From Thermoplasmatales archaeon SW_10_69_26 (GTDB lineage Archaea; Thermoplasmatota; SW-10-69-26), in the NCBI GenBank assembly GCA_003009755.1, contig PXUB01000004.1, positions 1 through 61,756 on the forward strand: 61,756 bases of DNA. Direction: 5' to 3'. Shown here piece after piece: positions 2,829 to 18,739 of the stretch (position 1 is its first letter; the number at the start of each line of letters is the position of its first letter). A program made the position numbers and the translations under genes. Under the pieces are notes generated by a model. It worked only from the letters and a program-made list of their open reading frames with translations, searched no databases and was not told where the DNA came from.

Positions 2829-3164
2829 TTGGGGGTGCCGGAGAGAACGAGGTGCATGCAGCAGCGCTGCCTCACGCGTGGCAAGTCGGCCGGGGACGGG
2901 GAGACGATCGAGACGTTCACCGAGCTCGGGCTCGGCCCGCACGAGGACGGGGGCGACCTGCATCTGTGTCGGGACTGCCTGGGTCAGCGCCGAGCCACGG
3001 ACTGGCCGCCGGACACCCAGGTGACCAAGCGCGTGCTCAGCGTCCTCGAGAACGCCGCCAAGCGCCACCCCCAGGGACGGTACAGCTACCTGCGGGACAC
3101 CGAGGAGGGGGTCCATCTCGTGCGGCTCGACAACGAGTGGGCCCGCCGCCACGCCGAGCACTGA
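2829..3164 (+). CDS. Small zinc-ribbon protein, paralogue 2
   Basis: About 110 residues, related to the preceding gene over FTELGLG, LCRDCL, GRYSYLRD and VHLVRLDNEW. The second knuckle CRDC is intact. The first is unusual: it reads C-x4-C (CMQQRC) instead of CxxC. The start is uncertain. A TTG at 2829 or GTG at 2835 keeps both cysteines of the first knuckle, whereas the ATG at 2856 would drop one. The spacing after the first copy is short, so co-transcription is likely. Function unknown. Confidence 0.65.
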   Translation: MGVPERTRCMQQRCLTRGKSAGDGETIETFTELGLGPHEDGGDLHLCRDCLGQRRATDWPPDTQVTKRVLSVLENAAKRHPQGRYSYLRDTEEGVHLVRLDNEWARRHAEH

Positions 3165-12889: not shown

Positions 12890-13771
12890 TTACGCGCGGC
12901 CGGCGGCGATGAGGTGGTCGGCCAGGCGGTCGCTGATGGGGTACCCGGTCTCGTCCTCGAAGACGGCGAACATGGGGGAGGGGTTGCACTCGAGGAACCA
13001 GGGGTCGCCCTCCTCGTCGAGGATGAGGTCCAGGCCCGTGTAGGTCATCTGGGAGGCCTCCCTCGCCGTCCGGCAGAGCTCTTCGACGTCGTCGGCGAGC
13101 TCGACGGGTTCGACCTCGGTCTCGGCGGCGCGGTAGTCGACGCGTTCGTCGGGGTCGAAGCGGAAGCGACCGGCCGCGATCGTGTCGTCGATGACGAACA
13201 CGCGGTGGTGGTCGCCGTCGACGAGCCGCTGCAGGAACACGGGCTCGGTGTCGAAGGCCTCGCGTCGTTCGCGGACGACCTCGGGCGTGACCTCGAGCAC
13301 GTGGCGGCGGCCGCCGCGGGGCTTGTAGACGACGCGGTCGTGCTGCTCGGCGAACGCGATGGCGTCCTCGGGGTCGGTGGTGACCTGGAAGGCGGGAACC
13401 GGGACGCCGGCGTCCTCCATGCGAGCCAGCTGGTAGCTTTTGCGAAGGTGGTCGTAGACGGAGCGGGGTGGGTTGACGACGGTCGACGCCTCGGCCAGGA
13501 TCTCGAGGATCGAGCCGATCGTGATCGCTTTCTCGGTCTCGGCGGCGTGCCAGGAGCGGTAGCGGTCGTAGAAGGCATCCCACTGCTCGGGCGTGGGTTC
13601 GTCGGGTAGGATGGGGTCCCACAGGCCCAGCCGGCGGGCGTACCAGGCGGCCACGTCGTCGACGGGTTCGCCGTCGATCTGCAACGAGGGGGTCTCGTCG
13701 ACGGCCAGCGTCACGGACAGCTCGCTGGGATCCTGGGTGGGGACCGATGAGACCGATGCGCAAGGGATCAA
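12890..13771 (-). CDS. ATP-grasp peptide ligase, graspetide (plesiocin/microviridin-type) maturase
   Basis: 293 residues from a TTG at 13771; GTG 13714 is an alternative. ATP-grasp ligases of RiPP clusters activate Asp/Glu side chains of a precursor and join them to Ser/Thr (ester) or Lys (amide). Seen here: a DDVAAWYARR segment near residue 40 matching the VWYRR motif of these enzymes, VVNPPRS near 100, the ATP-binding YKPRGGRRH near 150, DGDHHRVFVIDD near 190, and a C-terminal Mg site FLECNPSP followed by EDETGYPISDRLADHL. That last segment is characteristic of microviridin-type maturases. It lacks about 50 residues of the usual N-terminal domain. It follows the 31-residue peptide gene after a hairpin, which strongly suggests its substrate. 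Confidence 0.8.
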   Translation of the reverse strand: MIPCASVSSVPTQDPSELSVTLAVDETPSLQIDGEPVDDVAAWYARRLGLWDPILPDEPTPEQWDAFYDRYRSWHAAETEKAITIGSILEILAEASTVVNPPRSVYDHLRKSYQLARMEDAGVPVPAFQVTTDPEDAIAFAEQHDRVVYKPRGGRRHVLEVTPEVVRERREAFDTEPVFLQRLVDGDHHRVFVIDDTIAAGRFRFDPDERVDYRAAETEVEPVELADDVEELCRTAREASQMTYTGLDLILDEEGDPWFLECNPSPMFAVFEDETGYPISDRLADHLIAAGRA

Positions 13772-13809
13772 CTCGGGAACGGGAGAGAGGAGAAGAAAGA
13801 AGAGACGAG

Positions 13810-13827
13810 AGCTCGCGAGGGCGAGCT
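13810..13827 (-). terminator. Attenuator-like hairpin between peptide and ligase genes
   Basis: A perfect seven-base stem AGCTCGC/GCGAGCT with a four-base loop overlaps the first base of the peptide stop codon. On the minus strand it is followed by a run of nearly 30 C and T bases (13782-13809). RiPP operons often place a partial terminator here so that the precursor is made in excess over the enzyme. Confidence 0.5.
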
Positions 13828-13922
13828 TAGAAGGGGCACTCCTCGCCGAGGGCTTGCGTCGTCTGCCTGGGCTCGGGCTCGGGCGGTTCGCTGTCGTTGA
13901 CGGGTTCGAAGAGCTCACTCAT
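13827..13922 (-). CDS. Putative graspetide precursor peptide
   Basis: A 31-residue peptide: ATG at 13922, TAA at 13827-13829. It starts MSELFEPVNDSEPPEPEP and ends RQTTQALGEECPF. The segment TTQALGEE at residues 21-28 fits TTxxxxEE, the core motif I recall for plesiocin-type (group 2) graspetides, in which the two Thr form esters with the two Glu. The N-terminal part is acidic and Pro-rich and would be the leader. A TATA box, a short leader with GGGAGA about 8 bases before the ATG, a hairpin after the stop and an ATP-grasp ligase downstream all support a real gene. It contains one Cys (residue 29) and no other likely acceptor. The longer open frame that crosses it in another phase is not coding-like there. 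Confidence 0.75.
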   Translation of the reverse strand: MSELFEPVNDSEPPEPEPRQTTQALGEECPF

Positions 13923-13958
13923 GTGTGGTTCTCCCGTGGCTGGCTATCGCGTTCGTCG

Positions 13959-13966
13959 ATATAATG
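13959..13966 (-). promoter_or_regulatory. TATA box of the graspetide locus
   Basis: Minus-strand CATTATAT lies about 40 bases before the peptide ATG. Transcription would start near 13936, leaving a leader of about 13 bases that includes a GGGAGA ribosome-binding sequence. The locus therefore has its own promoter, separate from the cysS-side genes. Confidence 0.65.
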
Positions 13967-14045
13967 GTTGCGATGGACGGGCTCGGACGGCTGGGGTCGA
14001 CGTCGATCGGTTCGCCCGGCGGCGTGACGGGGAAGCGGGCCCGGT

Positions 14046-14378
14046 CTACAGCGTGTCCTCGACATCGAAGTCGAGGGTATCCCACTCGTCGGTCTCGGCT
14101 TTGATGCCGATCTGGTGCGCCCCGTCCTCGATCTCGTCGTCGGAGACGACCCGCACCTCGACTCCCTTGTCGAGGTCGAAGGGGCTGTCCTCGGTGATGT
14201 CCTCGGCGGGGATCGGATCTCCGTCGAGCTCGAAGGCGATGTCGACGGGGGTCCCGTCGATCTGGACCTCGGGCGGGGCCACGATCGTGGCCGTCGCCAG
14301 GTTGTTCTTGAGCTTGAAGGCGAACCCGCCTTCCTCGCGTGCCTCGAGGCTGTCGTCGACGTAGAGCTTCTTCAGCAT
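14046..14378 (-). CDS. Conserved-looking small beta-rich protein
   Basis: 110 residues from ATG 14378, starting MLKKLYVDDSLEARE. The body alternates short beta strands (FAFKLKNNLATATIVAPPEVQIDG, VDIAFELDGDPI, VEVRVVSDDEI, HQIGIKAETDEWDTLDFDVEDTL). The start and the KNNLATATI segment remind me of a small archaeal protein family sometimes mis-named as HMG-CoA reductase; I do not assign a function. A GC hairpin lies in the 60-base gap to the upstream gene, so it may be transcribed separately. Confidence 0.6.
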   Translation of the reverse strand: MLKKLYVDDSLEAREEGGFAFKLKNNLATATIVAPPEVQIDGTPVDIAFELDGDPIPAEDITEDSPFDLDKGVEVRVVSDDEIEDGAHQIGIKAETDEWDTLDFDVEDTL

Positions 14379-17272: not shown

Positions 17273-18739
17273 TCAGCCTGAGGCCCCGCTCGCGGCCACG
17301 CGACCGGCGCGGGCGTCGCCGGTCGCGGTGAGGGCCAGGCACGTCGGGTGGATGGCGACCTCGCCGTTCCCGACGCGGGACTCGCAGGCGGTGGCGTCGC
17401 CGGTCGTCGCGCCCCCGGTCCCGCCGACCGCGACGTGGGTGCACTCGGCGTCGCCGCCGAGGTGCGCGCACGGCGGGTCGAAGGGGTCCGAGGTCTCGCT
17501 GTCGAGGGCCTCGGTGCTGGTGGGGACGTAGGCGGGTCGACCGCTCAGGGCGGCGACGGGGTCGACCATGCCGTGGCCGTAGGCTTCGTCGTGGCCGTCG
17601 TCGCCGAGGTCGCGGGCGGTCTCGTTGAGGCGGTCGCGGACGTCGGCAGGCGTCATCGAGGGGTCCTGATCGAGCAGCATGGCACCGGTGGCGGTCACGT
17701 GCGGGGCGGCCATGCTCGTCCCGGAGTAGAAGCCGTAGGCGCCGGGCAGGGTGGAGAGCACGAGGCTGCCGGGCGCGGCGAGCTCGACCTGGGGTCCCCG
17801 GCAGCTGTAGTCGGCCGCCTGCAACGCAGGGTCGGTGGCGGCGACGGCGAGGGCTTCCGCGTGGATCGCAGGGTGTCGCACGCACTCGCTGGGATCGGAC
17901 TGTTGCGCGTTGCCGGCGGAGACGACGACGAGCACGCCGGCCTCCCAGGCCTGCCGGATCGCTTCGTGGAGCGGCTCCCAGTGGATGGTGCAGTGGCCGC
18001 TGAGGTTGATGACGTCGGCGCCGGCGTCGACGCTGTCGACGATGGCAGAGGCCATGTCGCTGCAGAACCCGCCGTCGGGACCGAACACGCGCGTGACGAA
18101 GAGGTCGGCCATCGTCATGCCGGCGACGCCGCGGTCGTTGTCGCGGATCGCCGAGGCGATCCCGGTCACGTGGGAGCCGTGGCCGGTCGTGTCCACGGGG
18201 TTGTCGTCGCCGTCGATGTAGTCGTGGCCCATCGTGACCCGGTCGGTGGGGAGGTCGGGATGCTGGATCGCGATGCCGCTGTCGACGACGGCGATCGTCG
18301 GCGAAACGTCGGGTCCGGCGATCGCCCAGGCTTGCGGGGCGTTGAGCTCGAGGGGACCCCACTGGGCGCCGAGGTAGGCGTCCAGCGGCACCTCGGCCGT
18401 CGGCGTGCGCGCGGCCGGCTGGCCCCGGGGATCGGGCGAGGGGGCCTGACCCGCCTCGGTCTCGAAAGCCTCGGGGTCCTCGAGCGCGAGCACGGCGAAC
18501 CCGAGGTGGGCGTCGGTGCGGACGAGGTGCCCGCCGGCGGCCTCGAGGCCCTTACGGAGCTCGGCGTCGGTCAACGCGTCGGTGTCGACGGTGTAGCGGT
18601 CCTCGGGAGCCGGGTCCGAGCCGGGATCGGTCTCGAGCCCGAGCCCTCCGCTAGCGACGGCCACGATCGCGACGACTGCGACGAGCAGCCATCCCATCGA
18701 CGGAGCTGTGCCTCCCGTTCGTTCGAGGTCGGCCTCCAC
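17273..18739 (-). CDS. Secreted subtilisin-like serine protease (S8)
   Basis: 488 residues with the complete catalytic set: Asp153 in VVDSGIAIQHPD, His187 in TTGHGSHVTG, oxyanion Asn277 in VVSAGNA and Ser342 in YSGTSMAAPHV. A signal or anchor helix is at residues 15-33, then a 90-residue prodomain-like region. The C-terminal 90 residues contain several cysteines (CAHLGGDAEC, ACES, TCLA) and could be disulfide-bonded. It would act outside the cell. The GTG at 18739 follows a TATA-like stretch near 18772-18782 on this strand; ATG 18697 is an alternative start. Confidence 0.93.
   Translation of the reverse strand: MEADLERTGGTAPSMGWLLVAVVAIVAVASGGLGLETDPGSDPAPEDRYTVDTDALTDAELRKGLEAAGGHLVRTDAHLGFAVLALEDPEAFETEAGQAPSPDPRGQPAARTPTAEVPLDAYLGAQWGPLELNAPQAWAIAGPDVSPTIAVVDSGIAIQHPDLPTDRVTMGHDYIDGDDNPVDTTGHGSHVTGIASAIRDNDRGVAGMTMADLFVTRVFGPDGGFCSDMASAIVDSVDAGADVINLSGHCTIHWEPLHEAIRQAWEAGVLVVVSAGNAQQSDPSECVRHPAIHAEALAVAATDPALQAADYSCRGPQVELAAPGSLVLSTLPGAYGFYSGTSMAAPHVTATGAMLLDQDPSMTPADVRDRLNETARDLGDDGHDEAYGHGMVDPVAALSGRPAYVPTSTEALDSETSDPFDPPCAHLGGDAECTHVAVGGTGGATTGDATACESRVGNGEVAIHPTCLALTATGDARAGRVAASGASG

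Follow-up and report, generated by a model that had tools for sequence, protein, structure and literature searches.

A probable plesiocin-type graspetide locus with a disrupted synthetase gene in a Thermoplasmatota archaeon, and its relatives in archaea and bacteria

Group 2 graspetides, with plesiocin, are a known type, and bacterial loci carrying the TTxxxxEE core are many. In the chemistry of the family, as set out in two papers (PMC13097080, PMC12291112), a carboxylate is phosphorylated and then attacked by a nucleophile, and the esters of plesiocin form a hairpin with one ring inside another; inhibition of serine proteases by plesiocin is also on record (PMC13097080). For archaea, the latter paper, a 2026 survey, predicts a graspetide group 36 that is confined to 'Thermoprotea' (PMC13097080). 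A survey of archaeal RiPPs makes no mention of graspetides, and the word "grasp" is absent from it (PMC12144867). An earlier, preliminary description of the locus considered here was aware of no characterised archaeal graspetide, and none was found in the literature open to view, that is, outside subscription papers and supplements; within the same bounds no report of graspetides from Thermoplasmatota was found.

The locus lies in the window, a 61,756-base stretch of DNA analysed as a whole, from a halophile-like archaeon of the Thermoplasmatota. It resembles the plesiocin system (PsnA2/PsnB) in its TTxxxxEE core, in a precursor gene that adjoins the synthetase gene, and in a ligase for which PsnB is the best PDB match by both sequence and fold. 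It differs in that the precursor lacks the canonical leader motif and has one core where plesiocin has four, the N-terminus of the synthetase is disrupted in the assembly, and the host is archaeal. The microviridin enzymes MdnB and MdnC share the superfamily and the chemistry, but their core motif and leader differ, they are weaker fold matches than PsnB, and they occupy their own branch of the tree. With high probability the window locus represents a minimal graspetide cluster of group 2 (the plesiocin type), in which an ATP-grasp synthetase gene follows a precursor gene. This assignment, already proposed in the preliminary description, is upheld by the PDB search, the fold, the phylogeny, the conserved adjacency of TTxxxGEE and a negative control.

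The precursor gene (nt 13827-13922, minus strand) encodes a 31-residue, acid-rich peptide, MSELFEPVNDSEPPEPEPRQTTQALGEECPF, with a net charge of -7. Its core motif, TTQALGEE (nt 13839-13862, minus), is the sole TTxxxxEE site across all six frames of the window; the open reading frame itself is as originally claimed. The promoter-like TTATAT (nt 13959-13964, minus) and the ribosome-binding-like GGGAG (nt 13931-13935, minus), which lies 8 nt ahead of the ATG, both spotted by eye, agree with the TATA box and ribosome-binding sequence reported before. Folding gave a 7-bp hairpin (nt 13810-13827) past the precursor stop codon, followed by a pyrimidine tract (whole element nt 13782-13827, minus). 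Compared with shuffled sequences the hairpin is not significant (z -1.5); together with the tract it is a possible terminator or attenuator between precursor and synthetase. The intergenic gap to the displaced start of the synthetase (TTG 13763), on the shared strand, is about 64 nt. No transporter, protease or regulator gene was recognised in the flanks of the pair, where the genes are annotated in part. Just upstream of the precursor and on the same strand is a short protein (nt 14049-14378, minus) with a match at 2.9e-15 to PF25653, the model of the N-terminal domain of HMG-CoA reductase. Elsewhere in the window, 3.4 kb from the precursor, there is a subtilase (nt 17276-18739, minus; Peptidase_S8, 4.5e-45) that probably begins with a membrane or signal segment; nothing ties it to the precursor.

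The body of the synthetase occupies nt 12893-13714 (minus; stop codon 12890-12892), read in-frame from GTG 13714, and the frame is open with a third-position GC of about 0.9 from about nt 13740 to 12893. The longer ORF at nt 12890-13918 was rejected as the ligase, its first part overlapping the precursor in another frame and lacking homology. The translation contains WYARR and FLECNPSPMFAVFEDETGYPISDRLADHL, the two segments named in the preliminary description of an ATP-grasp gene downstream of the peptide. Pfam returned only RimK-like and related ATP-grasp domains. Among NCBIfam models, TIGR04187 (GRASP_SAV_5884, a ribosomal-peptide maturase model) ranked first at 3e-29, ahead of MptN (1e-20) and RimK (6e-16), all under their curated cut-offs; for TIGR04187 the score was 102 bits against a cut-off of 350, a value exceeded by no match in 15 bacterial genomes searched with the same model. 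A PDB sequence search gave 7drm (PsnB, the plesiocin synthetase) as the top match (E 1.5e-32, runner-up 1.2e-17), and no RimK entry was among the matches at E <= 0.001. An AlphaFold2 model of the truncated chain, built on aligned sequences of the window and the loci, reached a pLDDT of 86. A fold search with this model again returned PsnB as best match (E 2.9e-20, TM 0.83), ranks 1-14 being all PsnB, followed by PruB, AMdnB, MdnC and CdnC, with LysX and RimK appearing from rank 31 (E ~1e-12 to 1e-10).

A maximum-likelihood tree of 62 enzymes, including graspetide synthetases and RimK/MptN-type rows, placed the window ligase among the former, and a branch with support of 100/99 splits it off from the latter. 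A grouping with RimK, which would have spoken against the preliminary description, was not seen. The six enzymes from Thermoplasmatota make up a single clade (94/84 in this tree, 94/90 in a smaller one). The window ligase sits on a long branch (1.7-2.1, where the median is 0.4), a possible sign of relaxed selection, and an AU test did not reject its placement with the actinobacterial clade instead of with the archaeal one (p 0.195); for both reasons the Thermoplasmatota clade is suggestive, not firm. The best ligase identities to the window, 36-37%, are with Pseudonocardia lacus and P. humida. Three rows initially labelled RimK-like (L005, L010 and L024) were placed with the maturases, and all match TIGR04187.

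These three rows come from other loci. L005 (G006:C36) and L010 (G006:C31), both ATP-grasp proteins from one genome that belongs to the same class as the window, match TIGR04187 at 3e-51 and 8e-48; no obvious precursor was seen in the stretches examined around their ligases. L024 (G245:C82) is a different ATP-grasp RiPP-like locus from a Thermoplasmatota-assigned draft (65% complete), with contamination possible. Its ligase (nt 1471-2511, minus) matches TIGR04187, MvdC and grasp-with-spasm models, and several of its small ORFs (nt 828-1004, 1173-1373, 2776-2928 and 2962-3141) start with K(I/V)FGL(K/R)Y.

The start of the window synthetase is displaced, a feature absent from the preliminary description. 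Aligned N-termini of homologues read xxGIIGP/S..D.Q, then a helix, then D..xFP; in the window a TTG followed by RIGLIGP (nt 13740-13763, minus) carries this N-terminal motif in a frame different from that of the body. Scored with a seven-column family motif, the start at TTG 13763 ranked first of 113,853 six-frame window positions, and under a longer twelve-column motif it ranked 14th of 107,713. The body resumes at about DPSELSVTL, out of frame with the RIGLIGP strand, and the first in-frame start codon past the lesion is GTG 13714. By manual count on alignments, about 74 nt are absent between strand and body relative to homologues such as that of P. lacus, consistent with the change of frame. 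Because the strand is out of frame and this segment is gone, the window sequence, as assembled, encodes no complete synthetase: the enzyme is without its first strand-helix-strand through a frameshifting deletion, and the intact reading frame that belongs to a group 2 cluster is absent from the assembly. Past the lesion there is no stop codon, codon periodicity is kept, and the gene outside its N-terminus looks intact. The disrupted copy is therefore in decay, wrongly assembled, or expressed from a start codon inside the gene, and the lesion itself is either an assembly error or a recent disabling of the gene. The claim that the pair makes a bicyclic ester peptide in its host went too far, since peptide production is not supported for a ligase that is frameshifted or truncated as assembled; we consider the odds that the window copy is active in its host to be slightly better than even.

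A search of 390 Thermoplasmatota genomes found close homologues of the ligase in three further genomes (G025, G266 and G104), with tandem synthetases in G266 and G104, and no clear homologue of the window synthetase in six genomes of the same family or class. A single-sequence query of genome contigs had returned nothing, and species genomes were scanned with an alignment profile, which recovered the same three archaea (Thermoplasmatota MAGs by name) and 26 bacterial relatives. At 25 of the 29 relatives (archaeal 3/3, bacterial 22/26) a TTxxxGEE lies no more than 1 kb from the ligase, in line with the earlier expectation that the small ORF would recur beside homologues, and TTxxxxEE is found at one of 29 RimK-like loci used as a negative control, that one lacking GEE. 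Four of the bacterial relatives (L048, L055, L060 and L069) have no recognisable precursor next to them; of these, L055 ends at a contig edge. Bacterial precursors often carry several to many copies of TTxxxGEE. The exact octapeptide TTQALGEE recurs in precursors of P. lacus (L062, where it is repeated), P. humida (L070), Thermomicrobiales (L068) and Hydrogenedentota (L072); the first three loci differ from the window in having several cores and an LFIxDL-type leader, and those of Pseudonocardia have long acidic tails. Viral contigs, searched with two patterns, held no relative.

The precursors of the archaeal relatives are MSDFWKDKKYTTMAIGEEDEPWWPPIY at the G266 locus (L041), MSNWNPKWYTTLAIGEEDDPWWPIVA at that of G104 (L042), and MPGNNGKGGKKKNEPEVTTLAIGEEDGSGDVVVL at that of G025 (L043/L083), which has a second precursor, MPADQAYANANYHAAFQGYQVTTLAIGEEDGSGDVVVL, at another contig end. 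Like the window, these loci have miniature precursors and ligases of one clade, with the core TT[LM]AIGEE in place of TTQALGEE; unlike the window, G266 and G104 have a second synthetase and a histidine kinase, and G104 and one G025 precursor are accompanied by an ABC-2 exporter. A TTxA-hydrophobic-GEE DNA pattern run over the 390 genomes of the phylum gave eight sites, three of which, inside frames of 613, 88 and 258 aa, were dropped as chance. Contamination is unlikely because the contigs carry archaeal genes: by Pfam, TBP on that of the window and eIF2-gamma on that of G266, and by reading, an archaeal-type GluRS (G104) and an MBF1-like gene (G025).

All five Thermoplasmatota precursors are 26-38 aa long. 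A leader motif LFIx[DE]L stands ahead of the core in 20 of 22 bacterial precursors and in none of the five archaeal ones, so that the short leader remarked on in the preliminary description is both correct and general across the phylum's precursors. Of this motif the window precursor retains LF alone, at a spacing of 17 residues from TT; in bacteria the spacing is 16 or more. Its single core copy had been called unusual, which it is not, since some bacterial relatives likewise have one. The two precursors of G025 differ at their N-termini and are identical in core and tail, VTTLAIGEEDGSGDVVVL, an arrangement opposite to that common in RiPPs. Moving the leader to the C-terminus has been tried in engineered fuscimiditide constructs, which makes recognition from the precursor tail conceivable (PMC13003496). 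The ends of the G025 contigs C8 and C196 (end of L083 and start of L043) share a near-identical stretch, CTGCTCAAAAAAAA..CTGGGGGAGC, which suggests a tandem precursor array split by assembly.

Directly ahead of the tandem synthetases is a dCache-HAMP-PAS-HATPase sensor histidine kinase (L041:954-3131 in G266, where Pfam gave the domains, and L042:28-2199 in G104, an evident homologue of the former), a possible signalling link. A DrrAB-like ABC ATPase and ABC-2 permease are near a precursor in G104 and G025, in the latter on a contig other than that of the ligase. Tentatively, the Thermoplasmatota loci may represent a leader-independent branch of group 2, with a constant core and tail behind a variable N-terminus, cyclisation by a synthetase that has a paralogous partner (G266 and G104), ABC-2 export and possibly sensing of the peptide, as an archaeal signal, by the dCache kinase. 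G025 also has two copies, 83% identical, of a block that includes a TATA-like element (L043:177-271 and 410-497); they precede a 41-aa Cys-containing peptide ORF (262-387, plus) and a secreted-looking 190-aa ORF that adjoins the precursor.

Three other readings of the window pair were weighed. That it is a decaying or dead remnant, with no product from a synthetase hit by the deletion of about 74 nt, is a real but lesser possibility: the N-terminal motif is out of frame, a segment is missing relative to all homologues, the ligase branch is long, and the six genomes searched from the same family or class yielded no clear synthetase homologue. Set against these points, the frame is otherwise open with strong third-position GC, every family-invariant column is retained, the precursor is intact, the truncated chain still models at a pLDDT of 86, and an assembly error is possible because the source is a draft of 49 contigs. 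An amino-acid ligase of the RimK/MptN/LysX type next to an unrelated small ORF would fit the Pfam names, and two of the archaeal relatives score better on MptN or RimK models than on TIGR04187, but sequence, fold, tree and neighbours all point to PsnB-type enzymes and make this very improbable. LysX and ArgX, whose fold the window ligase shares, take a small acidic carrier as their substrate; the peptide might be a LysW-like carrier or tag of this kind, extended on its Glu residues with no cyclisation. The conserved element is instead TTxxxGEE, including both Thr and often repeated within a bacterial precursor, and the Glu pair lies within the peptide rather than at its C-terminus, so this reading too has very little to recommend it.

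For the group 2 assignment, the computational support lies in homology, the core motif and an adjacency conserved in archaea and bacteria. If it acts as PsnB does, the synthetase would phosphorylate both Glu side chains of TTQALGEE, both Thr hydroxyls would attack to give two nested side-chain esters, and the product would be a small bicyclic hairpin, 36 Da lighter. Predicted monoisotopic masses would fall from 3502.55 (unmodified) to 3466.53 for the window peptide (-36.02 Da), from 1322.58 to 1286.56 for its tryptic fragment QTTQALGEECPF, from 3118.45 to 3082.43 for the G104 peptide, and from 3362.53 to 3326.51 for that of G266. Esterification, ring pattern, removal of the N-terminal (leader) part and export in archaea are presumed, and the archaeal product may act in protease inhibition or signalling.

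TIGR04187 also matches the control genome of Sulfolobus acidocaldarius, below cut-off, and this match is perhaps related to the predicted group 36. Given that group (PMC13097080) and this match, the presence of graspetides in archaea is in itself no novelty, and its newness had been over-stated. Group 36, likewise a prediction in archaea, is a distinct group, and a segregation-like protein of its own co-occurs with it (PMC13097080). What the present loci do is carry plesiocin-type clusters into the Thermoplasmatota. Their miniature substrates, which lack the usual leader, would offer a test of how graspetide synthetases recognise a precursor, and the kinase and exporter neighbours make a role in archaeal peptide signalling or protease inhibition testable.
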